This document shows positions 291 to 13,565 of a stretch of DNA of 64,000 nt, one piece after another. The position numbers and the translations under genes are program-made. Positions within the stretch are counted from its first letter, which is position 1. Every line of letters starts with the position of its first letter. Origin of the DNA: Terriglobales bacterium. Its GTDB lineage: Bacteria > Acidobacteriota > Terriglobia > Terriglobales > Acidobacteriaceae. The notes under the pieces are model-generated. The model worked only from the letters and a program-made list of their open reading frames with translations, was not told the origin of the DNA and did not search any database. The DNA is taken from NCBI GenBank assembly GCA_035691485.1, contig DASSIZ010000069.1:1-64000 (forward strand), in the 5' to 3' direction.

Positions 291-1949
291 ATGACCTACA
301 CGCGCCTGAACGCTTCCGCGGCGACGCTGACCAAGAACCGTACCGAGGACTCGGTCAGCCCGTTCAGCGGAATGTGCACCACCTGCATTGACGGGTGCAT
401 CGGAATGTGCGAGATCGGCAAGTCGGCCTATCGCGGCCCGGAGATGATCTACCCGCAACCGTTCGGCATCATCACCACCGCCTCGCAGAAGGACTACCCG
501 GTCGACCTGTCGCATTTCACCATCCTCGGGCGCTGCGCCGGAGCGTGGGGCTGCGAACCGGACAGCAACAAAGCCCTGTTCCCCAACGTCAACCTCGAAG
601 TCACCATCGGCGCGAACAAAAAGAACGGGATCAAGTGCAAGATGCCGCTCATCGGCGCCGCCATGGGCTCCACCAACGTCGCCAAGAACAACTGGCCGGA
701 GTACGCCGCCGGCCTGGCCATCAGCGGCGTGCCCATGGCGATCGGTGAAAACGTCACCGGCATGGACATGAACTCGCAGTTTGCCGGCGGCAAAGTCATC
801 TCCGCCCCCGAACTGAAGTGGCGCGTCGATTCCTACCGCGACTGGCAGCTGGACGGCTACGGCGAGGTCATTCTCCAGGCCAACGTCGAGGACACCATGC
901 TCGGCGTGCAGGAATATGCCATCAAGAACCTCGGCGTCGAGTCGGTCGAATTGAAGTGGGGCCAGGGCGCCAAGGATATCGGCGGCGAAGTGAAAATCCG
1001 CGATCTCAACAAGGCGCAGGAGTTGCAGAAGCGCGGCTACGTCGTTCTTCCTAACCCGTCCGATCCCGGCGTTATCGAGGCTTTCAAGCGCGGCGCCTTC
1101 CACGAGTTCGAGCGCCACTCCCGCGTCGGCATGGTCACGCTCGACGGCTTCATGAAGCGGGTCGAAGAGCTGCGCAAGTGCGGCGCCAAGCGCATCACGC
1201 TGAAGACCGGCGCATACAGGCCCGAGGACACAGCACGCGCCGTCAAGTACGCCTCGCTTTGCGAACTCGACCTGCTCACCGTCGACGGCGCCGGTGGCGG
1301 CACCGGCATGAGCCCGTGGCGGATGATGAACGAGTGGGGCATCCCCTCGGTCGAACTGCACTCGCTGGTCTACCAGTACTACTGCAAGCTGGCCAGCAAG
1401 AAGATGTTCCTGCCCGACCTGGCTTTCGCCGGCGGCTTCACCTTCGAAGACCAGATGTTCAAAGGACTCGCGCTCGGCGCCCCGTTTGCCAAGCTGATCG
1501 CCTACGCCCGCGCACCGCTGGCGGCGGCGATGGTGGCCAAGAACATCGGCAAGGCCATCGAGTCGCAAAACCTGCCCATCTACATCCAGCGCTTCGGCAT
1601 GGGCGTGGATGAGATCTTCGTCACCGCGCACGAGTTGCGTCACATCCTGGGCGACCGCTTCAAGAAGCTGCCCATCGGCGCCATCGGCGTCTACACCTAC
1701 AACCAGCGGCTGGCGCAGGGACTGCGGCAGTTCATGACCGGCGCGCGCAAGTTCGCCCTGCATTACATCACCCGCGACGACATCGCCTCCCTGACGACCG
1801 AGGCTGCCCGCATCAGCGGCATCGAGTACATCATGGACGTCGATGAGAAGCAGGCGGATGACATCCTGTTCGCCAACGGCACTTCCAAGGCGGCCAAGGC
1901 TGCCAAGCCGCGGGTCCTGGCCGGCAAGAATGGGAAGGGGAGGAAGTAG
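291..1949 (+). CDS. FMN-binding glutamate-synthase-like protein (GltB central/FMN domain type)
   Basis: The 552-residue protein corresponds to the FMN/iron-sulfur part of glutamate synthase without the N-terminal glutaminase domain. A compact cysteine cluster (C29, C32, C36, C40) near the N-terminus looks like an iron-sulfur site, and the TIM-barrel segment with DGAGGGTGMSP around residues 330-340 is the flavin and substrate region. Proteins of this kind are usually called glutamate synthase-related; the electron donor and ammonia source are unknown here. The ATG at 291 has an AGGAG at 279-283. The gene leads a co-directional run of tricarboxylate enzymes, so it could aminate a 2-oxoacid made by the dehydrogenase downstream; that is inference. 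A lysine-rich tail ends the protein. Confidence 0.8.
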   Translation: MTYTRLNASAATLTKNRTEDSVSPFSGMCTTCIDGCIGMCEIGKSAYRGPEMIYPQPFGIITTASQKDYPVDLSHFTILGRCAGAWGCEPDSNKALFPNVNLEVTIGANKKNGIKCKMPLIGAAMGSTNVAKNNWPEYAAGLAISGVPMAIGENVTGMDMNSQFAGGKVISAPELKWRVDSYRDWQLDGYGEVILQANVEDTMLGVQEYAIKNLGVESVELKWGQGAKDIGGEVKIRDLNKAQELQKRGYVVLPNPSDPGVIEAFKRGAFHEFERHSRVGMVTLDGFMKRVEELRKCGAKRITLKTGAYRPEDTARAVKYASLCELDLLTVDGAGGGTGMSPWRMMNEWGIPSVELHSLVYQYYCKLASKKMFLPDLAFAGGFTFEDQMFKGLALGAPFAKLIAYARAPLAAAMVAKNIGKAIESQNLPIYIQRFGMGVDEIFVTAHELRHILGDRFKKLPIGAIGVYTYNQRLAQGLRQFMTGARKFALHYITRDDIASLTTEAARISGIEYIMDVDEKQADDILFANGTSKAAKAAKPRVLAGKNGKGRK

Positions 1950-1955
1950 CTTGTG

Positions 1956-1979
1956 TCGGCACGACTTCTGTCGTGCCGA
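1956..1979. repeat. GC-rich perfect palindrome (REP-like)
   Basis: The inverted repeat tcggcacgac / gtcgtgccga with a 4-base loop lies 6 bases after the stop codon. A second small palindrome, gcggct / agccgc, follows at 1996-2009. Neither is followed by a T-run, so they look more like members of a dispersed palindrome family than terminators. Confidence 0.6.
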
Positions 1980-2065
1980 AGGGAACTTCACAGCGGCGGC
2001 TTGAGCCGCTGAGGCCACAGGAATCACTCGCAGCGCGCTCAAACCAGGGACGCGCGAGTAAAAGG

Positions 2066-2100
2066 AACCCGGGGCGGCGCAGCCCCGGGTTTCTCTTTTG
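2066..2100 (+). terminator. Rho-independent terminator
   Basis: A perfect 10-bp stem (aacccggggc at 2066-2075 with gccccgggtt at 2082-2091), a 6-base loop and a T-rich tail (ttctctttt) form a classic intrinsic terminator after the glutamate-synthase-like gene. This suggests that gene is its own transcription unit and the HD-PrpD-aconitase genes start a new one. Confidence 0.8.
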
Positions 2101-2201
2101 GCCGGCTATCAGTCTGTCAGTTTTTCCGTACCTTTCGAAAGGAAGTCCGCGAGCTGATGGACATGCGCTATGCTTAATGGTTTTCCTGGGAGGCGCTGAC
2201 C

Positions 2202-2765
2202 ATGCCTGACGCAGCTGCCGGCACGCTGCACGACGCCGTCCGCCGGCTCTGGCCGGAGCTGGAGTGGATACAAAATAAGGACTTGCTCGAGAAGGTGGCG
2301 CGCACCTGGTCGCGGGCATTCGAGCTCTCTCCGTTGACGCCCGACGACCTGGAACGCATTCCCTTCACGCTGCTGGTGCCGAACTGCACGGCGACATTCA
2401 TGGAGCACAAACGTTGTGTGGTCCACATCGCGCGCCGTTCCGCCGAGGCCATGCGCGAGCACATGGGCCGCACTCTGGCCATCGACATGGACGTCGTGAT
2501 CGCGGGCGCGATCCTCGCGGACGTTGGAAAGCTTTTGGAATACGAGAATGTGGGCGGCAAGACGCGGCAATCGAAACGCGGTGAGCTGCTGCGGCACCCT
2601 TTCACCGGCGTAGCGCTGGCCATGGAGTGCGGGGTGCCTGACGCGGTCTGCCACATCATCGCCGCCCACGCCGCCGAAGGGGATCATGTGCGGCGCTCCA
2701 CGGAAGCAATCATCGTGCACCACGCCGACTTTATGGCCTACGAACCGTTCAGAAATCTGAAATGA
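2202..2765 (+). CDS. HD-domain protein with degenerate HD dyad
   Basis: The 187-residue protein has the layout of a small HD-superfamily phosphohydrolase: H69 in a HKRCV segment, an ADVGK segment at 106-110 where HDxGK is expected, HPFTG at 132-136 and a later H156 with HHADF near residue 178. The histidine of the HD dyad is alanine (A106-D107), so one metal ligand is missing and activity may be altered or lost. The gene overlaps the next one by ATGA (2762-2765), implying translational coupling with the PrpD-like enzyme. No substrate can be named. Confidence 0.72.
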   Translation: MPDAAAGTLHDAVRRLWPELEWIQNKDLLEKVARTWSRAFELSPLTPDDLERIPFTLLVPNCTATFMEHKRCVVHIARRSAEAMREHMGRTLAIDMDVVIAGAILADVGKLLEYENVGGKTRQSKRGELLRHPFTGVALAMECGVPDAVCHIIAAHAAEGDHVRRSTEAIIVHHADFMAYEPFRNLK

Positions 2766-4180
2766 CGATCACCGGACCGATCTCGCAATTCGCATCGTCG
2801 CTCAAGTTTGAAGACCTCTCCCCCGACGCCGTTTACCAGGCGAAGCGATTCCTGCTGGACTCAATCGGCTGTGCCCTCGGCGGCTACCGCCAGCACGACG
2901 TCGTCATGGCGCTGCAAGTGCTGGACGAAATCGCCGGCCGCGGCCCGTGCACGGTGATCGGCAGCGGCAAGCGCGTGGACGCCGTGTCGGCATCGCTGGC
3001 GAACGCGTTAATGATCCGCTGCATGGACTACAACGACATCTACTGGAAGCAGGACCCCTCGCATCCCTCCGACATTTTTCCCGCGGCACTGGCCTGCTGC
3101 GAGCGCTCCGGCAGCGATGGCCGTGAATTGATCGTGGGGTTGGTGCTCGGCCATGAGTTCGAGTGCCGCTTCTGCGAGGCAGCCTTTCCCGGCATTCGCG
3201 AGCGCGGTTGGCATCACGCAACATTGACAGCGTTCATTTCGCCAATCGTGGCCGGACGTGCGCTGCATCTTTCAGCGGAGCAGATTCAGCACGCCATCGG
3301 CATCTCGGCGTCCCGCCATGCAACCTTCGGGGCGGTGACCGCCGGCAAGCTAACCATGATGAAGAACACCGTGGACCCGATGGCGACGCAGTCCGGCGTG
3401 CTGGCCGCCCTCATGGCCGAAAAGGGCTACACCGGCCCCGAGCACGTGGTGGATGGCAAAGAGGGGCTGACGCATTGCTTCGGGCCCGAGTGGAAACTGG
3501 ACGTGCTGACAGAAGGGCTGGGGCAGTCATGGCGCATCACCCAATGCGGGATGAAGTTCTTCCCTACCGAGGCGCTTACGCACGCGCCCATCTCGGCCGT
3601 ACTTGACCTGGTGCATGCGCACGACCTCAAGCCCGACCAGGTGGCAAAAGTCCACATTCGTTCGCTGGCGCGCGCCGCCGACATCCTCTCCGACCCCAGC
3701 AAGTACGATCCTCACACCAAGGAAACCGCCGACCATTCGCTGCCTTACGTGATCGCCGCCGCCCTGGTGGACCGCCAGGTCACGCCGGCGCAGTTCACGC
3801 CGGAGAAGATCATGGACGCGAAGATTCGCGCGCAACTGCGCAAGGTTGAAGTGATCGGCGATCCCGAAATCGAAAAAGTATTCCCCGCCTTGCAGCGCGT
3901 CATCGTGACCGTTCGCACTACGTCAGGGCAGGAGTTCACCCGGCAGCTCGACTATCCTAAGGGCGATCCGCGCAACCGTTTGTCGGATGCCGAAATTGAA
4001 GAGAAGTTCGCGGCGCTGGCGGGGCCGGTGATGTCGCGCGCCGCGCAAGAAAAGATCCGCGAGGCAGTGTGGAACCTGGAAAAGCTGGAATCCGTTAGCG
4101 GGTTGATGAAGCTGCTGAAGGAGAAACGCATGGTTGCTAACCAAACTAAAGGGATGGCCCATGGGTCAGACGATCACTGA
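2762..4180 (+). CDS. MmgE/PrpD family protein (2-methylcitrate dehydratase-like)
   Basis: The full-length 472-residue protein belongs to the MmgE/PrpD family. Recognisable blocks are LDSIGCALGGY near the N-terminus, DPSHPSDIFPAAL around residue 100, ADHSLPYVIAAAL around 325 and YPKGDPRNRLSD around 400. Characterised members dehydrate 2-methylcitrate or decarboxylate cis-aconitate. The start overlaps the HD gene by four bases and the end overlaps the aconitase-like gene by 20 bases, so the three are one translationally coupled unit. Pairing a PrpD with an aconitase-family hydratase is consistent with dehydration then rehydration of a tricarboxylic acid. prpB and prpC are not in the window, so a complete methylcitrate cycle is not shown. 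Confidence 0.85.
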   Translation: MTITGPISQFASSLKFEDLSPDAVYQAKRFLLDSIGCALGGYRQHDVVMALQVLDEIAGRGPCTVIGSGKRVDAVSASLANALMIRCMDYNDIYWKQDPSHPSDIFPAALACCERSGSDGRELIVGLVLGHEFECRFCEAAFPGIRERGWHHATLTAFISPIVAGRALHLSAEQIQHAIGISASRHATFGAVTAGKLTMMKNTVDPMATQSGVLAALMAEKGYTGPEHVVDGKEGLTHCFGPEWKLDVLTEGLGQSWRITQCGMKFFPTEALTHAPISAVLDLVHAHDLKPDQVAKVHIRSLARAADILSDPSKYDPHTKETADHSLPYVIAAALVDRQVTPAQFTPEKIMDAKIRAQLRKVEVIGDPEIEKVFPALQRVIVTVRTTSGQEFTRQLDYPKGDPRNRLSDAEIEEKFAALAGPVMSRAAQEKIREAVWNLEKLESVSGLMKLLKEKRMVANQTKGMAHGSDDH

Positions 4181-6146
4181 AAAAATCGCGCAGGCGCACC
4201 TTGCCCAGGGCCCGAAACGTGCCGTGCGGGCGGGCGACTTCGTCTCCATCCGTCCGAAGCATGTCATGACCCACGACAACACTTCGGCGGTAATAAAGAA
4301 GTTCAAGTCCATCGGTGCGACAACAATCCATGACCCGCGCCAGCCTGTGTTCGCGCTCGACCATGACATCCAGAATCAATGCGAGGAGAACCGTAAGAAG
4401 TACAGCGCCATCGAGGCCTTTGCGCGCGAGCACGGCATTGATTTTTATCCGGCAGGCACCGGCATCGGTCACCAGATCATGTGCGAGCGTGGCTACGTCA
4501 CGCCCGGATCGTTCGTCGTCGCCAGCGATTCTCATTCCAACATGTACGGCGCGCTCGCCGCGATCGGCACGCCTGTGGTCCGCACCGATGCCGCTGCCAT
4601 CTGGGCAACCGGCGAATTCTGGTGGCAGATTCCGCGAACCGTGCAGGTGGTGCTCGATGGGTCGCTGACGCCTGGCGTTTCCGGCAAAGACGTGATCATT
4701 GCCCTTTGTGGCGCGTTCAATGTGCATGTTCTGAATGCGGCGGTGGAATTCAGCGGACCGGGTGTTGCGTCGCTCTCCCTGGATGCCCGCATGACGATCG
4801 CCAACATGACGACCGAGTGGGGCGCCCTGGTCGGCTGGTTCCCGTGCGATGAGATCACGATCCAGTGGCTGCGCGAACGGAGACAGGAGCGCCTACAACG
4901 CGGCGAGCCCGCGCGCTATAGCGAAGCGGACTTAAGATCGTGGGTCACCGATCCGCCGCACCCGGACGCGGATGCCGATTACGCTGCGCGCATTACGCTC
5001 GATCTCTCGCACCTCACGCCACACGTGTCCGGCCCCGACACGGTGCAGGAGATGACTTCCCTGGTCGAACTCGAAAAAAAGAAGGTCGCCATCCAGAAGG
5101 CGTACCTGTTGTCGTGCGTGAACTCGCGCGTCGAGGACCTGGAGGAAGCGGCGCTGGTGCTGCTGAACAAGAAAGTAGCGCCCTCGGTCAAGTTCTACCT
5201 CGGAGCCGCCAGCAAGCGGGTACAGGAGGAAGCGGAGAGGCGCGGCATCTGGCGCACCCTGGAGGAAGCTGGCGCAACCACTCTGCCGGCCGGGTGCGGA
5301 CCATGCATCGGCCTCGGTGTCGGATTGCTGGAACCAGGGGAGGTCGGGATTTCCGCCACCAACCGCAATTTCAAGGGACGTATGGGTTCCCGCGAGGCGC
5401 AGTGTTACCTCGCATCGCCCGCGGTGGTGGCGGCAAGTGCGGTGGCCGGCTATATCTGCGGGCCGGAAACGCTGGGGCGTCCGTCAGGAGAGCGTGACGA
5501 TCGCAAGAAAACCGGCGGCATGCTGGCGCGTTACAAGAACCTGCAAGTGGGGCGCCGGTCGGAGAGTGCGGGCGAGACGGTGGAGATCATTCCCGGATTT
5601 CCCGAGCGCCTGCGCGGTCGTCTGGTATTTGTGCCCAAAGACAACCTCAACACCGACGCGATTTATCCCGGCAGCTACACTTATCGCGATGACGTCACGC
5701 CGCAGATGATGGCCGATGTTGCCTTCTCCAATTACGATCCCGAATTTCCGAAGCTTACTCGTCCGGGCGACGTGATAGTAAGCGGCGCCAACTTTGGCAC
5801 AGGCTCCAGCCGCGAGCAGGCGGCAACGTCGCTCAAGGCGAAAGGCTTTCCGCTGCTCATCGCCGCCTCGTTCTCGCAAACGTATTTACGCAATGCCTTC
5901 AACAACGGCTTCCTGTGCATCGAGATTCCGGAACTGGTGAAACGATTGAAGGCGGACTTTGCACAGCAGATCGCGGCAGGGGGGAAGACGATCATTCCGG
6001 GTGACGAGGTCGCCATCGACTTCACCAGCGGCGTGGTCACATGGCGTAGTGACCAGTTCCGTTTCCCCCCGCTGGGCGCCGTGCCACAATCGCTGGTGGT
6101 CGCGGGCGGAGTCGAGAACCTGGTTGCGCGGCGACTGCGATCTTAG
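4161..6146 (+). CDS. aconitase-family hydratase, homoaconitase (Lys4/LysF)-like
   Basis: A single chain of 661 residues carries the iron-sulfur large domain and the swivel domain that are separate subunits in LeuC/LeuD. Cluster ligands are C319 (SCVNSR), C379 and C382 (CGPC). The swivel part has NTDAIYPGSYTYRDDV and GTGSSREQAA. The IYPG-YTY-DDV pattern recalls fungal homoaconitases more than bacterial LeuD or AcnA, as far as I can judge from memory. ATG 4161 is chosen because AAAGGG sits 7 bases upstream at 4148-4153; a longer in-frame start exists at 4134. It should interconvert a tricarboxylate through its cis-aconitate form; isocitrate, homoisocitrate and isopropylmalate all remain possible. 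Confidence 0.8.
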   Translation: MGQTITEKIAQAHLAQGPKRAVRAGDFVSIRPKHVMTHDNTSAVIKKFKSIGATTIHDPRQPVFALDHDIQNQCEENRKKYSAIEAFAREHGIDFYPAGTGIGHQIMCERGYVTPGSFVVASDSHSNMYGALAAIGTPVVRTDAAAIWATGEFWWQIPRTVQVVLDGSLTPGVSGKDVIIALCGAFNVHVLNAAVEFSGPGVASLSLDARMTIANMTTEWGALVGWFPCDEITIQWLRERRQERLQRGEPARYSEADLRSWVTDPPHPDADADYAARITLDLSHLTPHVSGPDTVQEMTSLVELEKKKVAIQKAYLLSCVNSRVEDLEEAALVLLNKKVAPSVKFYLGAASKRVQEEAERRGIWRTLEEAGATTLPAGCGPCIGLGVGLLEPGEVGISATNRNFKGRMGSREAQCYLASPAVVAASAVAGYICGPETLGRPSGERDDRKKTGGMLARYKNLQVGRRSESAGETVEIIPGFPERLRGRLVFVPKDNLNTDAIYPGSYTYRDDVTPQMMADVAFSNYDPEFPKLTRPGDVIVSGANFGTGSSREQAATSLKAKGFPLLIAASFSQTYLRNAFNNGFLCIEIPELVKRLKADFAQQIAAGGKTIIPGDEVAIDFTSGVVTWRSDQFRFPPLGAVPQSLVVAGGVENLVARRLRS

Positions 6147-6154
6147 TACCCGTG

Positions 6155-6240
6155 ATTGCTGAACTGCAGACGTGCGGAATTGCCGGATCGAAGCACGGCG
6201 TGAACAATTCGGCAATTTGACAATTCGGCAGTTCAGCAAT
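6155..6240. repeat. octamer array folded as an inverted repeat
   Basis: The 3' half is a period-8 array (caattcgg, caatttga, caattcgg, cagttcag, caat) at 6205-6240. Its last 13 bases (6228-6240) are the exact reverse complement of 6155-6167, and the inner parts pair imperfectly, giving a hairpin of about 85 bases between the aconitase-like and dehydrogenase genes. The element ends 10 bases before the downstream start codon. Confidence 0.85.
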
Positions 6241-6250
6241 GGAGGGATTC

Positions 6251-7471
6251 ATGGCGAAACACACACTCGTGTCAATGCCTGGCGATGGCATTGGCAACCA
6301 GGTTCTACCGGAGGCGATTCGCGTGCTCGACGCGGTCGGCTTCGACGCGACCTACGTGCACGGCGATATCGGCTGGGAATTCTGGAAGAGCGAGGGCAAT
6401 GCCCTGCCCGACCGCACCATCGCCCTGCTGGAGAAACACAAGCTCGGCCTGTTCGGCGCCATCACCTCGAAGCCAAAGAAGGAAGCTGACGCCGAACTCT
6501 CGCCCGCCCTCCGCGGCAAGGGGTACACGTATTACTCGCCCATTGTCACCATGCGGCAGCGCTTCAACCTCGATATCTGTCAGCGGCCGTGCATCGGCTT
6601 TCCCGGCAATCCTCTCAATTTCATTCGCAAGAAAGTCGGTGGCGGATTTGAAGAGCCTCAGGTCAACGTGGTCGTCTTCCGCCAGAACACCGAGGGCCTG
6701 TACGCGGGCGTCGAATGGACGAATCCGCCGGCACCGGTGCGCAGCGCGCTGGAGTCGCACCCAAAATTCAAGCCGTTTGCCACAACGCGCGGCGAGGACC
6801 TGGCGATTTCCGTTCGCATAATTACGCGTCGCGGCGCTGAGCGCATCTCCCGCGCGGCCTTCGAGCACGCCAAAAAATATGACTACAAGAACGTGACCAT
6901 CTGCGAGAAGCCCAACGTGCTCCGCGAAACCAGCGGCATGATGGAAGAAGTTGCGAAGCAGGTGGCCAGGGACTACTCGATTCCGCTCTGGTCCACCAAC
7001 ATCGACGCGCAGACCATGTGGCTGACCAAGAACCCGGAGGATTACGGGGTGATCATCGCGTCGAACCTCTTTGGCGACGTGATCAGCGACGCTTTTGCCG
7101 GTCTGGTCGGTGGCCTGGGTTTTGCCGCCAGCGGCAACATTGGCGACGAAGTCGCAGTCTTTGAGCCGACGCACGGCTCGGCACCCAAGTATGCGGAACT
7201 CAATCCACCTATCGTCAATCCCATCGCGATGATATTGTCGGCGGCGATGATGCTCGACCACGTCGGCGAGCACGACAAGGCGGAGCGCGTGCGCAGCGCA
7301 ATTGCGGCGGTGGTGGCGGAGGGAAAAGTCCGCACCTATGACATGATGCGGATTCCCGGCGGCGCTAAGTCGGTTGCGCAGGGCGCCGCTACAACAATGC
7401 AGATGACCGATGCCATCTTGCAGAAGTTGGAAACGGCGAAGGTGCGGCAGCTGACTAGCGTTGGCTCTTAG
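6251..7471 (+). CDS. isocitrate/isopropylmalate-family dehydrogenase
   Basis: The 406-residue beta-decarboxylating dehydrogenase has NTEGLYAGVEW, the metal-site segment SNLFGDVISD and the dinucleotide-site segment THGSAPKYA; the KY pair matches NADP-type isocitrate dehydrogenases. The substrate loop is unusual: where E. coli enzyme has SLNVALR, this has SPIVTMR (S96 and R102 kept, the Asn replaced by I98), so the substrate may not be plain isocitrate. ATG 6251 has GGAGGG at 6241-6246; the ATG at 6239 lies inside a repeat and is rejected. The last codons and the stop lie in a heptamer array. It should oxidise and decarboxylate the 2-hydroxy acid made by the hydratase upstream. Confidence 0.83.
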   Translation: MAKHTLVSMPGDGIGNQVLPEAIRVLDAVGFDATYVHGDIGWEFWKSEGNALPDRTIALLEKHKLGLFGAITSKPKKEADAELSPALRGKGYTYYSPIVTMRQRFNLDICQRPCIGFPGNPLNFIRKKVGGGFEEPQVNVVVFRQNTEGLYAGVEWTNPPAPVRSALESHPKFKPFATTRGEDLAISVRIITRRGAERISRAAFEHAKKYDYKNVTICEKPNVLRETSGMMEEVAKQVARDYSIPLWSTNIDAQTMWLTKNPEDYGVIIASNLFGDVISDAFAGLVGGLGFAASGNIGDEVAVFEPTHGSAPKYAELNPPIVNPIAMILSAAMMLDHVGEHDKAERVRSAIAAVVAEGKVRTYDMMRIPGGAKSVAQGAATTMQMTDAILQKLETAKVRQLTSVGS

Positions 7472-7495
7472 CTCTTACTTTTTAGCTTTTATGGC
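7461..7495. repeat. heptamer array bridging a stop and a start codon
   Basis: The units ttggctc, ttagctc, ttacttt and ttagctt occupy 7461-7488 and run into ttatggc. The array encodes the last residues and TAG stop of the dehydrogenase (stop at 7469-7471) and touches the ATG at 7491. There is no recognisable ribosome binding site within it. Confidence 0.85.
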
Positions 7496-8729
7496 GACAA
7501 CGGCAAACGTGAATACGACAACGTTCGAAGCGGGGCGAAGCGGAGCCGATATTCGCTCCGACTGCCGCGTCGTGTTTTCTGGCCACAGCTCTGGCGGTAT
7601 CGACATTGAGCTGCAATCGAAAGTTGCGGCGTACTACGGCGATTCGATTCTAACCCAGGCACGCCAGGTATTAGCCGATCTCGGCGTGGAGCACGGGCGA
7701 CTGTTGATCGAAGACGCCGGGGCATTGCCGTTCGTTATTTCAGCGCGGATTGAAGCCGCGGTGCGGCGTGCAGGCTTGGGCGAAGGCAGGCGATCGCTGC
7801 CGGAACAGGTGCCACTGCCCGCGCCTTCGCCACGGGATCGCTTGCGCCGCTCGCGCCTGTACCTGCCGGGCAGTGAGCCAAAGTATTTCGTCAACGCCGC
7901 GCTGCATGCGCCCGACACGATTATTCTCGACCTGGAAGACGCGGTTCACTCGAATGAAAAAGATGCGGCGCGCGTGCTGGTGCGGAACGCGTTGCGCGCG
8001 GTAGATTTTGGGACGTGTGAGCGCATGGTGCGCATCAATCAGCTTCCGCTCGGGCTGGCGGATTTGGACGAGGTGGTTCCGGAATCTCCCGACCTGGTCC
8101 TCATCCCCAAGACGGAGCATCCCGAGCAGGTCGCCGAGGTGGAGCAGCGGATCGCGCGCGTACAGTCGCGCTGCGGGTTGCATCGCGACATCTGGCTGCT
8201 GCCGATCCTGGAAACGGCGATGGGAATTGAGAACGCAATGCCGATCGCAACCGCCTCGCCACGCAATGTCGCGCTCACCATTGGCCTGGAGGATTACACC
8301 GCCGACATCGGCGTAGCGAAGACGGCGCTGGGGGCTGAGTCGCTGTACGCGCGCACGCGAATCATCAACGCCGCCAAGGCCGCCGGCTTGCAGGCGAATG
8401 ACTCCGTGTACGGTGATGTCGGTGACCTCGAGGGCCTGGCCGCCTGGGCTCGCAACGCCCGCGCCCTCGGCTTTGAGGGCATGGGCTGCGTCCATCCGCT
8501 GCAGGTTGCGGTCATTCACCAGGCGTTTGCCCCGGCGCAACAGGAAATTGATCGGGCGCTGCGAATTGTTGCCGCTTATGAAGACGCGCAGGCGCGCGGC
8601 CTCGGCGTGGTAAGCCTGGGCTCGAAGATGATCGACGCGCCGGTGGTACAGCGCGCGCTCAAACTCGTCGAGCGCGCCAGGCTCATGGGGCTGATACATT
8701 CGCCGCGAGGGAACACTGATGAACGCTGA
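7491..8729 (+). CDS. citrate lyase gamma-beta fusion (CitD-CitE)
   Basis: The 412-residue chain has two parts. Residues about 13-95 match the citrate lyase acyl carrier protein CitD (EAGR, a GGIDIELQSKV segment, YGDSI, a GALPFVISARIEA segment). Residues about 115-400 match CitE, citryl-CoA lyase (RSRLYLPGSEPKYF, DLEDAV, GLEDYTADIG, GCVHPLQ). In enterobacterial operons these are separate subunits. S23 in IRSD is a candidate site for the phosphoribosyl-dephospho-CoA arm, by loose alignment with Ser14 of CitD. ATG 7491 is chosen; an upstream in-frame ATG at 7461 lies in the repeat. The partner alpha subunit follows. No citC, citX or citG is present in the window, so how the prosthetic group is made and attached is unclear. 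Confidence 0.85.
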   Translation: MATTANVNTTTFEAGRSGADIRSDCRVVFSGHSSGGIDIELQSKVAAYYGDSILTQARQVLADLGVEHGRLLIEDAGALPFVISARIEAAVRRAGLGEGRRSLPEQVPLPAPSPRDRLRRSRLYLPGSEPKYFVNAALHAPDTIILDLEDAVHSNEKDAARVLVRNALRAVDFGTCERMVRINQLPLGLADLDEVVPESPDLVLIPKTEHPEQVAEVEQRIARVQSRCGLHRDIWLLPILETAMGIENAMPIATASPRNVALTIGLEDYTADIGVAKTALGAESLYARTRIINAAKAAGLQANDSVYGDVGDLEGLAAWARNARALGFEGMGCVHPLQVAVIHQAFAPAQQEIDRALRIVAAYEDAQARGLGVVSLGSKMIDAPVVQRALKLVERARLMGLIHSPRGNTDER

Positions 8730-8774
8730 TTTTTCTGATCCGTTCCGATCCGCGTTAATCAGCGCCGATTCTAG
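8709..8774. repeat. dispersed ACTGATRAAC/GCTGAT element
   Basis: The segment actgatgaac followed by gctgat, with inverted arms cgctgatt (8724-8731) and aatcagcg (8757-8764), fills the gap between the two citrate lyase genes and supplies the last codons of the CitD-CitE fusion. A related element with actgataaac and gctgat lies at 34359-34452. Confidence 0.6.
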
Positions 8775-10349
8775 ATGAGCACAACCGCCAATTCGATTGA
8801 ACTCGCCACCAACGCCGCCGGACGCGTGGTTCCTGCCAGCGTCAACGGAGCGCCGCAACGCGTGTACGCGGGCGTGAACAACAATCGTCCGCAGGGACGC
8901 AAAGCCGCGCCCCCGGTCCGCACCGCCTCCGACTATCCGATGAATGGAGACAAGCGCGTGCCCGACCTCGAGACCGCCCTGCGCAATTGCGGGCTGAGCG
9001 ATGGCATGACGATCTCGACGCACCATCACCTGCGCGACGGCGACAGGGTGGCGCTGTGGGCGCTGCAAACCGCGGCAAAGCTGGGTGCGCGCGACCTGAT
9101 GTGGTTCCCTTCGGCGTCGTTCCCGGCACACGCCCCGGTGATCGAGTTGATGGAATCCGGGAACGTGCACCACATCGAGGGCTCGATGAACGGACCGCTC
9201 GGCGATTACTGCACCCAGGGCCGGATGCGCGGCCTAGGCGTGCTGCGCTCGCATGGCGGGCGCTGGCAGGCAATCCAGGATGGCGAGGTACACATTGACA
9301 TCGCGGTGATCGCCGCCCCGACCGCGGACGCGTTCGGCAATGCCAACGGTTCGCACGGGCCCTCGGCCTGCGGCTCGCTGGGATTTGCGCTCGCGGATTC
9401 GATGTACGCCGACCACGTGATCGTCGTCACCGATAACCTGGTCGAGTTCCCCTGCGTTCCGTGGCAAATTCAGGGCAACAATGTGGACTATGTGGTGCAG
9501 GTTGATTCCATCGGCGATGCGTCCAAAATCGTATCCGGCACCACGCAGATCACGCGCTCGCCTGACCGCCTGCTGATCGCGCAGCAGGTGGCGCAGTTCG
9601 TGCGCGACGCCGGCATCATGCGGCCGGGATTTTCGTTCCAGGCCGGAGCGGGCGGAATCGCGCTTGCATTTGTGGACTACCTGCGACGCCACATGAAGCA
9701 GAGCGGCGTGCGCGCGCGCTTTGTGCGCGGCGGCTCCACGCGATACCTTGTCGACTTGCTCCAGGAAGGCTTGACCGACTACATCCTCGACGGCCAGACC
9801 TTCGATCTTGAGGCCGTGCGGTCAATGGCCAACGACCCGCGGCACGTTGCGACCTCGCCGTTCACCTCCTACAACTACCACGGCAAGGGTTTTTTCAACT
9901 CCCTGGTTGACGTAGTAGTGCTGGGGGCAACGGAAGTAGACGTCCACTTCAACGCCAACGTCGTCACCCACTCCGACGGGCGCTTGCTGCACGGCATCGG
10001 CGGATGGCAGAACTGCCTGTTCGCCGGCTGCACCATTCTCGCCGTTCCGTCCTTCCGCGACCGCATTCCCGTGATCGTAGATCAGGTAACCACGCTTACC
10101 GGGCCGGGCGAGTTGGTGGACGTGGTGGTAACGGAGCGAGGCATCGCCATCAATCCGCGACGGCAAGATCTGCTCGACGCGGTGAAAGGCTCGTCACTTC
10201 CCATCCGTCCGATCCAAGACATCCAGCGCGACGTGGAAAGAATCTGCGGCGGCAAACCGCAGAAACCCCGACTCACCGAAAAGCCTGTCGCCGTGGTCAA
10301 GTGGGTGGACGGAACGGTGCTGGACACGGTTTGGCAAATCAGCACTTAG
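8775..10349 (+). CDS. citF: citrate lyase alpha subunit (citrate:acyl-ACP transferase)
   Basis: The 524 residues match the full length of CitF. Supporting segments are ISTHHHLRDGD near residue 80, IEGSMNGPLGDYC around 135, a glycine-rich FQAGAGGIALAF, and GKGFFNSLVDVVVLGATEVD followed by VNVVTHSDG-like sequence around 380. CitF swaps acetyl for citryl on the acyl carrier arm; CitE then releases oxaloacetate. It follows the CitD-CitE fusion with only a repeat element between, so the complete gamma, beta and alpha catalytic set is encoded by two genes. The TAG stop (10347-10349) lies in the first unit of a heptamer array. The reaction direction and exact substrate are inferred from the family. 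Confidence 0.88.
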   Translation: MSTTANSIELATNAAGRVVPASVNGAPQRVYAGVNNNRPQGRKAAPPVRTASDYPMNGDKRVPDLETALRNCGLSDGMTISTHHHLRDGDRVALWALQTAAKLGARDLMWFPSASFPAHAPVIELMESGNVHHIEGSMNGPLGDYCTQGRMRGLGVLRSHGGRWQAIQDGEVHIDIAVIAAPTADAFGNANGSHGPSACGSLGFALADSMYADHVIVVTDNLVEFPCVPWQIQGNNVDYVVQVDSIGDASKIVSGTTQITRSPDRLLIAQQVAQFVRDAGIMRPGFSFQAGAGGIALAFVDYLRRHMKQSGVRARFVRGGSTRYLVDLLQEGLTDYILDGQTFDLEAVRSMANDPRHVATSPFTSYNYHGKGFFNSLVDVVVLGATEVDVHFNANVVTHSDGRLLHGIGGWQNCLFAGCTILAVPSFRDRIPVIVDQVTTLTGPGELVDVVVTERGIAINPRRQDLLDAVKGSSLPIRPIQDIQRDVERICGGKPQKPRLTEKPVAVVKWVDGTVLDTVWQIST

Positions 10350-10412: not shown

Positions 10413-10440
10413 GGAAAAGGGCCGGCTCGAAAGCCGGCCC
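10413..10440 (-). terminator. Rho-independent terminator of the Oar-like receptor gene
   Basis: A perfect 9-bp stem (gggccggct at 10419-10427, agccggccc at 10432-10440) with a 4-base loop is followed on the minus strand by TTTTCC. It sits 24 bases beyond the stop of the receptor gene. On the plus strand it has no T-run but may still slow transcription from citF. Confidence 0.75.
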
Positions 10441-10463: not shown

Positions 10464-13400
10464 CTAGAAAATAAACTTCACCAGGAATCGGCCCTGGAAA
10501 CCAGGGTTGAACATGGCCGCCTTGCCGTAGCGGGGGTCGAGATTGCTGCCTCCCGCCAAGGCTGCCGCAGCCGCCATGGGTTTCCAATCGAAGCCCTTCC
10601 GCAGGTCCATGTTCAGGAGGCTGACACCTGTGGAATCGTAGGTTTCTTCGAAGTTGTAACGGTCCATGGTGAACACACTGGTCTTCTGGTTAAAGAGGTT
10701 GAGGGCGTTGAACTCAAAGCGCAATCTCCGACTCTCGCTCTTACCCAGCTTGAGTTCATGCGCCACCATCAGGTCGGTCTGGCTGAAGACCGGAGTCCGG
10801 CCCATGTCGCCTCGGCCTTCGACGTACATGCCGATGCCGTTAATGGTCTGCATCTGGGTTGAGACCGGAGTGCCGCTGGAAACGCGGAAGAAGCCGCCAA
10901 TCTCGGTGCCCCACTTAAACTGCTTGGCGCCGTAAAACTTGAACACGTGCGGACGATCGGTCGGCAGCGGTCCATAGTTTCCGATGACGCCATGCGCGTT
11001 AATCATGGTCTGGTCGAGATCGTAGTAGCGGTTGGCGTTCCCACCGGGCCGGAAAATCTGGCCGTAGAAGCTCTGGTTACCCGCCGAGGAATAGCCGAGG
11101 GTTGGAGGAGTAATTTCGTCCGTGCTCTGCAGTCCGGAGTAATTGCCCCAAAGGCGGCTATAGACGTAGCTGGCATTGAACAGCAGTCCGTTACCGAAAC
11201 GTCGCGACAAAGACAGCTCCATCGCGTCATAAACACGTTTCGGCTTGGGCATGGGTATGCCGCAAGTCGCCACAGCATCGCTTAGGCTGGTGCCAACGTA
11301 GCAAGACGGCGACTCGGTGTTTGCCCCTTCCCCGGGGTTGCCGTATTTGTAAGCTTCGCTGCCATCGACCAGCACGCCCATGTCTTCAATGGTCCGGTTC
11401 AAGTTGGTGCGCACGTACCGGCCGGTGAAGACCATGTTCTTCCGGATTTCCCATTCCACGCCGGCATTCAGCGAGTCCTGGCTCATGGGCTTGATTTGCG
11501 GGTCCACGTAATTGAAACCCGGCAGACGCATGTCTCGGAAAGCGCTTCCCCACAGATTGGTGCCGGGCATGTTGTTCAAGCCGAGGCTGAACACGTCGGT
11601 GGTATCCAGCGAGCGGTAGTAAATATGCCAGAGGTCGGCGCCGAAGGTTCCGCGGGCCAAGTCAAGCTTGGTCCAATCGAAGTACCGGCCCCAGCCACCG
11701 GAGATCTTTACCTTACCGTTGCCGAACAGGTCGAAACTGGCGCCCAGCCGCGGAGCCAGCTTGTCGCCATAACCGAACTGGAACGCGTACTGCTTGATGT
11801 CGGTACGGAAGGAGGGAATGGTTTCTTTTTCAAAACGGACACCAGCATTGATCGTCAACCGGCTCATCGCCTTCCAGGAATCCTGGACGTAGATGTGGTT
11901 GATGTTGGCGCCGGCGGAGCCGCGGCGGGCGTAGTCATCGACCCGGTAATAGCCGTAGGTCCCAGTTGCGTTCGGCGGGGTGCATCCGGCGCAGGTCTGG
12001 CCCCAGTAGAGGTAGACGCGGCCGTTCGGGCCATCGTCGGTGCTGAAGACATTGTTGATGTTCTTCTGCGTGCCGACGCCGAACTTGAAGTTATGCTGCT
12101 GGCCGGCGAGGCGGACAAACTGGCTGAAGTCGGCCTGCACGTAGGTGCGAGTGGTCAGGTCGTGCACGATCTGACCGGCGGCCGGAGTGGTATAGCCGTT
12201 CGCCTGCTGTGCCGCCAGAGGGACACCGGGCATATCAATGGACGAAGCGCGCCACCAATACTCGGTGGTTGCCGTCACGCCGGTATCTTTGTAATTCAGG
12301 CGATAGCGGCCGCCTTTGACGCTCAGCACCGAGCTATTCGTCGGCGTGTAGTCAATCTGGCCGGTGTAGCTTTGCTCCGGCTGGTTGAATCCGAGCATGG
12401 CGTTGTCGCGCTGAGCCGTCATGTTGCTGGTGCTGACGTTCGGCGCCTGGCCGTTCGGTCCTGGAGTGACGCCCTGGGAATACTGAGGCGTATACAGCCA
12501 AGTGAAGTTCATGCGTACGCGACTGGTCGGTTCAAAGGACAGCTTGTTGAACCAGTTCATCGCCAGCGCCTTGGTGCCGAAGGTACCCGCGCCGTCAGAG
12601 AAGGTGAGTTTGCGGCTCTGCCGTAACCATGACGGAGAGAAGTTGGTATAGAAGAACAGCTTGTTCTTGATGATGGGGCCGCCCAAAGAACCACCGACTT
12701 CGTAGTTATCCTGCTTCCGCTTGCCATCCTGGAAGTAGTGGAAGGTGGTCATGTCGTCGCTGAGTTGCATGCGCTCGGCGGGACCAGCGGAAATCTTGTT
12801 CCCCGAATAGTAGACGTGGATGTCACCATGGAAGGTGTTGCCACCCGACTTGCTGATGCCGCTGACCACACCACCGAGGGCGCCGCCGTATTCGGCTTCC
12901 AGTCCCGTGGTCTTCACCTGGACTTCCTGGATGTAGTCGAAGGTAGCAGTCTGGCGCGAGGAGCCGTCAATCAGGCTGTTGGTGGAAACGCCGTCAACGT
13001 AATAGGCGTTTTCAGCGCCGCTGGCGCCATTGATCTGGTAGCCGCCCTCGATCGTGCCGGTATTCACCGACGGCGAGAACACTGCGACGCCGGCGAAATT
13101 GCGGCCCTTGGGAAGGGTGTTAATTTCCTCGGCGGTTACGTTATGCGAGATCATGGTAGCGGTGGTGTCAATGATGGGCGCAGCGCCGCTCACTTCGACC
13201 ATCTCTTGCACGGTCCCGACTTGCAGTTCGATGCTGACGGAAGTGTTTCTGCCGACCAGGACCACGATGTCGGCCACTTCCCGGCTGGTAAAGCCGGTCT
13301 TCACAAAGGTTACCGAATAATGACCCGGTTCAACGTCGGCGAGGGTGTAGCTGCCGTCGCCGCGACTGTGAACGGTGACGCTGCGGTTGGTGTCTTTGTT

Positions 13401-13565
13401 GGTTATGGTAACTGCCACTCCGGGCAGCACGGCGCCGGTTTGGTCTTTGACCACGCCGGTGACGTTACCGAAGCGCTCCTGGCCGTATGCGGGCAGGACT
13501 AGAGCAACTAGAAGTGCGACGAGAAAAAGCGAGACGAATATTCGCTTTGAATCAATGGAATGCAT
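10464..13565 (-). CDS. Oar-like TonB-dependent outer-membrane receptor
   Basis: The 1033-residue protein starts with a signal peptide (about residues 1-29, cleavage after PAYG), then a carboxypeptidase-regulatory-like beta domain (about 33-115; GVVKDQTGAVLPGV, GSYTLADVEPG), a plug domain (about 125-245; NGASGAENAYYVDGV) and a long beta-barrel ending in the aromatic motif FLVKFIF. This architecture is that of the Oar-like receptors that are highly expanded in Acidobacteria and thought to import large organic ligands. No substrate-specific neighbour is seen; the ligand is unknown. A tonB gene lies far away at 59.4-60.3 kb. Monocistronic, with its own terminator. Confidence 0.93.
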   Translation of the reverse strand: MHSIDSKRIFVSLFLVALLVALVLPAYGQERFGNVTGVVKDQTGAVLPGVAVTITNKDTNRSVTVHSRGDGSYTLADVEPGHYSVTFVKTGFTSREVADIVVLVGRNTSVSIELQVGTVQEMVEVSGAAPIIDTTATMISHNVTAEEINTLPKGRNFAGVAVFSPSVNTGTIEGGYQINGASGAENAYYVDGVSTNSLIDGSSRQTATFDYIQEVQVKTTGLEAEYGGALGGVVSGISKSGGNTFHGDIHVYYSGNKISAGPAERMQLSDDMTTFHYFQDGKRKQDNYEVGGSLGGPIIKNKLFFYTNFSPSWLRQSRKLTFSDGAGTFGTKALAMNWFNKLSFEPTSRVRMNFTWLYTPQYSQGVTPGPNGQAPNVSTSNMTAQRDNAMLGFNQPEQSYTGQIDYTPTNSSVLSVKGGRYRLNYKDTGVTATTEYWWRASSIDMPGVPLAAQQANGYTTPAAGQIVHDLTTRTYVQADFSQFVRLAGQQHNFKFGVGTQKNINNVFSTDDGPNGRVYLYWGQTCAGCTPPNATGTYGYYRVDDYARRGSAGANINHIYVQDSWKAMSRLTINAGVRFEKETIPSFRTDIKQYAFQFGYGDKLAPRLGASFDLFGNGKVKISGGWGRYFDWTKLDLARGTFGADLWHIYYRSLDTTDVFSLGLNNMPGTNLWGSAFRDMRLPGFNYVDPQIKPMSQDSLNAGVEWEIRKNMVFTGRYVRTNLNRTIEDMGVLVDGSEAYKYGNPGEGANTESPSCYVGTSLSDAVATCGIPMPKPKRVYDAMELSLSRRFGNGLLFNASYVYSRLWGNYSGLQSTDEITPPTLGYSSAGNQSFYGQIFRPGGNANRYYDLDQTMINAHGVIGNYGPLPTDRPHVFKFYGAKQFKWGTEIGGFFRVSSGTPVSTQMQTINGIGMYVEGRGDMGRTPVFSQTDLMVAHELKLGKSESRRLRFEFNALNLFNQKTSVFTMDRYNFEETYDSTGVSLLNMDLRKGFDWKPMAAAAALAGGSNLDPRYGKAAMFNPGFQGRFLVKFIF

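Follow-up and report, generated by a model that had tools for sequence, protein, structure and literature searches.

A conserved six-gene operon of Acidobacteriota pairing a homoaconitase-type hydratase with citrate-lyase-like subunits: a candidate homocitrate module

The upper α-aminoadipate pathway of fungi (Lys4 and Lys12), Thermus and methanogens (Aks enzymes) combines a homoaconitase-type hydratase with a β-decarboxylating dehydrogenase and, in fungi and Thermus, uses a separate dehydratase step. The cit operon (CitCDEFXG) encodes the CitD, CitE and CitF subunits of citrate lyase, with an invariant carrier serine in CitD, and the 2-methylcitrate cycle pairs a PrpD-family enzyme with a member of the aconitase superfamily. 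Elements shared with each of these systems were found in a 64,000 nucleotide stretch of DNA (hereafter the window), positions 1 to 64,000 of the forward strand of contig DASSIZ010000069.1 (assembly GCA_035691485.1), from a Terriglobales bacterium of the Acidobacteriaceae. The window starts at base 1 of its contig (C69), and the genome of 3.84 Mb is 98.5% complete. Six genes on the + strand between 2202 and 10349 encode, in order, an HD-fold protein (HD), an MmgE/PrpD-family enzyme (PrpD), a homoaconitase-type hydratase, a β-decarboxylating dehydrogenase, a CitD-CitE fusion (CitDE) and a CitF-like transferase subunit. The operon differs from the α-aminoadipate pathway in having lyase subunits and not a homocitrate synthase, in the partner of the hydratase, which is PrpD here and aconitase there, and in the NADP-type motif of its dehydrogenase. 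Unlike the cit operon, it has CitD fused to CitE and subunits that score below the curated cut-offs; CitG and CitX were not found, CitC had no match in the window's genome (G000), and no transporter was noticed nearby, no family search having been made. Where the 2-methylcitrate cycle has PrpB and PrpC, the operon has a dehydrogenase and a CitDEF lyase.

The six genes are read here, with a probability of roughly 0.43, as a complete module for the lengthening or shortening of 2-oxoacids via homocitrate, in which a citrate-lyase-type enzyme replaces the synthase. CitF and CitDE would interconvert homocitrate with 2-oxoglutarate and acetate, PrpD would dehydrate homocitrate to homoaconitate, the Lys4-type hydratase would add water to homoaconitate to give homoisocitrate and the NADP-type dehydrogenase would interconvert homoisocitrate with 2-oxoadipate and CO2. 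The route would be reversible in principle; the likelier direction would run from 2-oxoadipate, CO2 and NADPH to 2-oxoglutarate and acetate, because lyases of the acyl carrier protein (ACP) type favour cleavage. The first-pass annotation, made from the sequence, held that no substrate fits all members and that citrate, 2-methylcitrate and homocitrate each explain part of the set. This was too strong, since homocitrate can fit every member if PrpD dehydrates it and CitDEF is the matching lyase. 2-Methylcitrate can be excluded as a substrate shared by all members: its isomer, 2-methylisocitrate, is, as a tertiary alcohol, not open to oxidation by a dehydrogenase of this kind.

All seven genes listed by the first-pass annotation were present on the + strand at the positions it gave, and the coupling it described was borne out for HD with PrpD and for PrpD with the hydratase. 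HD (2202-2765; HDIG, 32.4 bits against a cut-off of 27.6) overlaps PrpD (2762-4180) by 4 bases, and PrpD overlaps the hydratase (4161-6146; fused large and small domains, aconitase family, 362 and 67 bits) by 20 bases. The dehydrogenase (6251-7471, with an alternative ATG at 6239; Iso_dh, 242 bits) lies 92 or 104 bases further on, followed after 19 bases by CitDE (7491-8729), which comprises a carrier domain (ACP, 62.9 bits) and a lyase (HpcH_HpaI, 173 bits), and after another 45 bases by CitF (8775-10349; PF04223, 438 bits). From HD through CitF, adjoining genes thus overlap or sit no more than 104 bases apart.

Recurrence of the unit was followed in 41 genomes, comprising that of the window and its relatives, and in the best 80 of 550 confirmed stretches from a scan of named genomes (the named loci). 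Score floors for the neighbourhood tables were 45 bits for relatives, 70 for named loci, 60 for split-operon genomes and 55 for the surroundings of CitF; in the final count of named loci, matches below 38% identity were also dropped, CitF excepted. Four named loci duplicate contigs of the relatives, the 90 loci representing 86 distinct hydratases and the 66 dehydrogenases 62 distinct ones. The hydratase was present in 10 of the 41 genomes at 69-100% identity. At all ten relatives' loci HD and PrpD were linked to the hydratase and the dehydrogenase followed, and CitDE and CitF were present in all eight whose contigs continue; at one of the ten (L035) HD-PrpD is inverted some 5 kb away with the linkage kept. 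Among the named contigs, all six genes occurred in 38 of the 47 with room on both sides, HD and PrpD in 56 of the 65 that extend 2.7 kb or more upstream, and the dehydrogenase, CitDE and CitF in 42 of the 51 that extend 4.7 kb or more downstream. The hydratase, dehydrogenase and lyase therefore recur together as a coherent tricarboxylate unit, as had been proposed, and the co-occurrence with the lyase, whose absence the first-pass annotation would have counted against its proposal, is found in those 42 contigs. Six-gene contigs bear four phylum titles: Acidobacteria, Gemmatimonadota (L078), Latescibacterota (L085) and Deltaproteobacteria (L106). All six genes are full-length at 39 loci, and at 37 of these they are collinear on the same strand; the remaining pair, L035 and L049, is a single contig present in two collections. 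Pairwise divergences were correlated for all 15 gene pairs (r 0.68-0.90), with none of 500 permutations as high; this indicates shared inheritance, not function.

The conserved core is made up of six genes (2202-10349), not seven. The glutamate-synthase-like gene at 291-1949 on the + strand (Glu_synthase PF01645, 43 bits), which had been counted as a member, was found at none of the 80 named loci and, among the ten relatives' loci, at the three of the same genus, and was rejected as a genus-level neighbour outside the conserved unit. No other seventh gene recurred: among the 60 commonest clusters of open reading frames (ORFs), with shadow frames set aside by eye, the widest occurred at no more than 14 of the 90 loci, and a cluster of ABC-transporter ATPases at seven; no family search aimed at transporters or regulators was made around the loci. 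A description of the operon was not recognised in the open-licence papers searched. None of 36 stretches was confirmed in a search of viral contigs, and all 588 records from a plasmid search fell below 60% identity.

The TIGR00139 hydratase was counted in 12 of 159 genomes from the window's phylum (a lower bound at E <= 1e-150), CitF in 25 and both in nine. CitF was present in nine of the 12 genomes with the hydratase, as against 16 of the 147 without it (Fisher p 2.3e-6), the genomes not being independent since three of the nine with both genes share one genus. In seven of these nine the two genes lie on one contig, approximately 4.6-5.1 kb apart. Splits, counted only inside contigs that continue, keep HD, PrpD and the hydratase together at L087, L103 and L116, and the dehydrogenase with them at L074, while split-off blocks elsewhere carry dehydrogenase-CitDE-CitF (L188) or CitDE-CitF (L186, L190). 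A locus with the dehydrogenase at the contig start (L189) was taken as a contig break and not counted, the hydratase contig of the same genome ending just past the hydratase. CitF was searched in 21 genomes, 17 of them picked because no whole CitF lay near the hydratase; 11 of the 17 have one somewhere, one of them (L193) at 32% identity only, as do all four genomes picked as positives. CitF at L109 and CitDE at L110/L191 are each interrupted, the pieces lying far apart on a single chromosome record, which may represent rearrangement or assembly error.

The surroundings of CitF were examined in eight of the 16 phylum genomes that have CitF but no TIGR00139 hydratase. Two of the eight contain a variant operon (L197, G103:C127, 1-9300; L199, G114:C24, 2515-9461), and in the other six CitF occurs with or without CitDE and with none of the remaining genes. 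The variants share HD, CitDE and CitF with the window, and L197 also the dehydrogenase, directly upstream. They differ in that two aconitase/homoaconitase-family enzymes, a fused homoaconitate-hydratase-family enzyme of 600-628 amino acids and a HacA-family large subunit of 419-420 amino acids with its small subunit, replace PrpD and the Lys4-type hydratase; no PrpD match was found in either variant. A pair of hydro-lyases is thus kept while its members change, which suggests that the dehydratase and hydratase halves of homocitrate isomerisation are supplied by either of two enzyme pairs in otherwise similar operons.

The hydratase is the only protein of the unit to score above an NCBIfam equivalog cut-off, that of TIGR00139, homoaconitase of the fungal Lys4 type (739.1 against 529.9 bits), so its earlier description as a fungal-type homoaconitase was right; the homologues at L203, L205 and L121 scored 699-736 bits. 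Its Fe-S cysteines C320, C380 and C383 (residues counted from the codon at 4158, the ATG lying at 4161) and its catalytic Ser/Arg motif, GSSRE, are present in all 90 hydratases. The recognition loop reads YTYR, residue 510 being Arg in 83 of 90 sequences and Lys in five, and alignments placed Arg 510 near an Arg of the homoaconitase small subunit 2pkp and a Val of the isopropylmalate/citramalate isomerase 3vba. Work on isopropylmalate isomerase and homoaconitase describes the small-domain recognition loop as setting substrate choice (PMC7308503). Judged from these alignments, the loop Arg would favour a substrate with a third carboxylate, and does not speak to the distance of that carboxylate. 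It bears on a C5 alternative, in which the module would act on citramalate and 3-methylmalate, interconverting pyruvate and acetate with 2-oxobutyrate and CO2, with CitDEF as a citramalate lyase. The superfamilies involved include C5-type enzymes, and isopropylmalate/citramalate isomerase is one of the solved structures related to the hydratase; the loop Arg and the homoaconitase-type assignment nevertheless indicate a tricarboxylate and make a C5 substrate improbable.

Fungal homoaconitases, as characterised in PMC3556520, interconvert homoaconitate and homoisocitrate only and need aconitase to dehydrate homocitrate, a need that its authors compare with the reliance of the methylcitrate cycle on a dedicated dehydratase. 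Because of this need for a separate dehydratase, a PrpD beside a Lys4-type enzyme makes sense as a two-enzyme isomerase. Both the N and C domains of the MmgE/PrpD family are present (235 and 158 bits against 32.1 in Pfam), and residues D89, H101, K201 and H274, which we take to be catalytic, are conserved in 71 of 71 sequences. The protein misses the dehydratase equivalogs TIGR02330 (52.5 against 458 bits), NF006943 (76.5 against 575) and NF042438 (82.9 against 950). A variant of the methylcitrate cycle for propionate would account for a PrpD-family enzyme with an aconitase-family partner, that being the methylcitrate pattern. It was rejected as hardly credible on the tertiary alcohol given above and on these scores of 52-83 bits against cut-offs of 458-950; by eye, the shared neighbours, for which no family search was made, showed no family resembling PrpB or PrpC. 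The nearest solved relatives of PrpD are IRG1 (cis-aconitate decarboxylase) and IDS epimerase, with scores so alike that structure matches do not choose its reaction. They raise the alternative that PrpD is a decarboxylase of cis-aconitate or a homologous acid, or an epimerase, and that the operon serves to produce or process an itaconate-like acid, with which a weaker match of CitE to the RipC itaconate lyase (158 against 375 bits) would agree. Decarboxylation would skip the co-conserved hydratase and dehydrogenase, and the variant operons are without a PrpD match; an itaconate-like product is accordingly very improbable.

The dehydrogenase misses every equivalog, the best scores being 273.6 bits for AksF2 (cut-off 540), 233.8 for isocitrate dehydrogenase (IDH; 510) and 145 for leuB (353). 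Its substrate-pocket motif is SPIV in 66 of 66 dehydrogenases, where the genome's own IDH-like paralogues have S-[IL]-N-V (SINV and SLNV, NAD- and NADP-type). The Asn of S-x-N-V binds isocitrate and is replaced by Ile in all 66. The cofactor motif HGSAPKY is likewise invariant (66/66) and agrees with that of the genome's own NADP-IDH-like enzyme, while LeuB and the NAD-IDH-like paralogue have D-I at this motif; Lys-Tyr after HGxAP marks NADP specificity in the Iso_dh family. Full-length matches were a mixture of isocitrate and homoisocitrate dehydrogenases, and a 49-residue query gave no match among solved structures. The substituted Asn argues against a substantial possibility, short of even odds, that the same module operates on citrate: PrpD and the Lys4-type enzyme would isomerise citrate and isocitrate, the dehydrogenase would be an NADP-IDH and CitDEF a citrate lyase. 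Such a module would either cleave or form citrate, converting 2-oxoglutarate and CO2 to oxaloacetate and acetate or degrading citrate by two arms. One model match of PrpD, far under its cut-off, is named bifunctional 2-methylcitrate dehydratase/aconitate hydratase and would suit this alternative, which leaves the conserved separate dehydratase unexplained, since one aconitase would suffice.

The lyase subunits bear on the citrate alternative in both directions. CitE, CitF and CitD are nearest to citrate lyase models, yet all score below the citrate-lyase cut-offs (citD 56.3 against 63.5, citE 270.7 against 443.4 and citF 475.5 against 501.45 bits). Ser23 of CitD, presumably the modified serine from its correspondence with E. 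coli CitD, occurs without exception in all 53 sequences. CitG was found in none of 41 and none of 31 genomes (72 in all), five of 14 control genomes being positive, and CitX in none of the 41, the E. coli control being positive. CitC had no match in G000; CitC-family matches of 21-36 bits (cut-off 20.9) occurred in 14 of the 41 genomes, among them the cluster-bearing G007, G013 and G017, and 12 of the 14 fell in frames of 169-208 amino acids, judged CoaD-like by size only. Either the CitD carrier acquires its prosthetic group in a different way, or the enzyme acts on CoA thioesters and some other reason accounts for the retained serine. The boldest proposal, put forward as tentative and rather doubtful, is a homocitrate lyase pathway in bacteria of several phyla, four by their record titles. 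In it an ATP-independent ACP-type lyase would work with PrpD, with the Lys4-type homoaconitase and with a homoisocitrate dehydrogenase specific for NADP, leading from 2-oxoadipate to 2-oxoglutarate and acetate or the other way, and the serine would be loaded without CitG or CitX.

The rest of the genome encodes a 987 amino acid, AcnA-sized frame and a LeuC-like enzyme (both assigned without a family scan), LeuB, NAD-IDH-like and NADP-IDH-like enzymes (labelled from their motifs), a fourth Iso_dh paralogue that passes the isopropylmalate dehydrogenase cut-off, and three proteins of the citrate synthase family PF00285. All 13 genomes searched for LysA contained it with a score above the cut-off, which indicates that lysine is made via diaminopimelate, unlike in the α-aminoadipate pathway. 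Since citrate synthase, aconitase, IDH-like and LysA genes exist elsewhere, the unit belongs neither to the core tricarboxylic acid (TCA) cycle nor to lysine synthesis, and both lysine biosynthesis and the filling of a TCA gap were rejected as its role. The same housekeeping aconitase, two IDH-like enzymes and citrate synthases speak against the citrate alternative, beside which no citrate transporter was noticed next to the operon by eye, no family search having been made. An HMGL-like synthase (G000:C109) was considered as the missing homocitrate synthase and rejected, being below every cut-off and without a similar-scoring match in the cluster-bearing G018. At L162:2742-5080 of the window's genome, an HMGL-like synthase below all NCBIfam cut-offs directly follows an unclassified ORF (2742-3884). 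At L165:4043-6373, also in this genome, a 776 amino acid aconitase-family protein has a LeuD-like part (130-249) ahead of the large-subunit part (335-764).

A seven-carbon chain is favoured by the homoaconitase assignment, the separate dehydratase and the redundancy of citrate enzymes, and it is on these that we infer the substrate; the likelier direction is judged from the lyase type. Several observations weigh against homocitrate. The 101-residue substrate half of the dehydrogenase is locally nearest to NADP isocitrate dehydrogenases, none of its 29 matches being a homoisocitrate dehydrogenase, and this favours citrate. R510 of the hydratase probably corresponds to the aconitase substrate Arg, and no residue test separates a C6 from a C7 substrate. 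To our knowledge, no homocitrate lyase activity has been described. At least one of the six genes is missing nearby in nine of the 47 roomy named contigs, and CitF is missing from three of the 12 phylum genomes that contain the hydratase. Inspection by eye of the shared neighbour families, with no family search, revealed neither a lysine-degradation gene nor a tricarboxylate transporter. In the two families to which the variant operons belong, five genomes were checked for PF00285 citrate synthase: it is present in G077 and G135 and absent from G103, G114 and G143 although CitF is present, which would suit a role on citrate in those three. Curated names can also mislead, as in the Re-citrate synthases that are described as misannotated as homocitrate synthase (PMC12016533).

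The HD protein was rightly called degenerate by the first-pass annotation: its HD pair reads Ala-Asp in place of His-Asp, with A106 in 71 of 72 sequences and D107 in all 72. No Pfam HD match was obtained for the window's protein, whereas the HD proteins of the variant operons match Pfam HD and retain His-Asp. A model of the family was built on 32 of 33 non-redundant sequences, L082 at a contig edge being left out. The AlphaFold model has a predicted local distance difference test score (pLDDT) of 91, and the sole solved structure matched by Foldseek at E <0.001 was YhaM (E 4.9e-5), with weaker matches (E >=0.03) to phosphodiesterases, deoxynucleoside triphosphatases and cyanamide hydratase. 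At the split loci L087, L103, L116 and L074, HD stays with PrpD and the hydratase, and it is seen as a conserved accessory that probably acts with the dehydratase/hydratase pair. On a Krumholzibacteriia contig (L088:5694-7727), HD is preceded by two further genes, one thiolase-like with an NCBIfam score below the cut-off and one small and unclassified.

A G+C-rich hairpin (2066-2091) lies between the glutamate-synthase-like gene and the operon, and a second hairpin (10419-10440) lies 3’ of CitF, before a convergent TonB-receptor-like gene (10464-13565, recognised by eye from the sequence). Both were given on the - strand by the scan for terminator-like sites, and a T-rich stretch also follows the hairpin at 2066-2091 on the + strand; the scan alone proves little, because it returned 13 sites against 9.5 ± 3.3 in shuffled sequences. 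A similar TonB-receptor-like gene likewise lies beyond CitF at L036. A scan for promoters found none where 2.2 were expected, and no tRNA or Rfam match was found within the window. The glutamate-synthase-like protein has a Cys-rich N-terminus, and a 602-codon frame antisense to its gene (234-2042, - strand) was taken as a G+C-driven shadow frame.

If the homocitrate reading is true, the operon would provide a complete central-carbon route for soil and sediment phyla that are mostly uncultured, and would correct likely annotations, as aconitase, isocitrate dehydrogenase and citrate lyase, that hide it. The operon also poses the puzzle of how a citrate-lyase-type carrier domain functions, its serine being invariant, in genomes that yielded neither CitG nor CitX.

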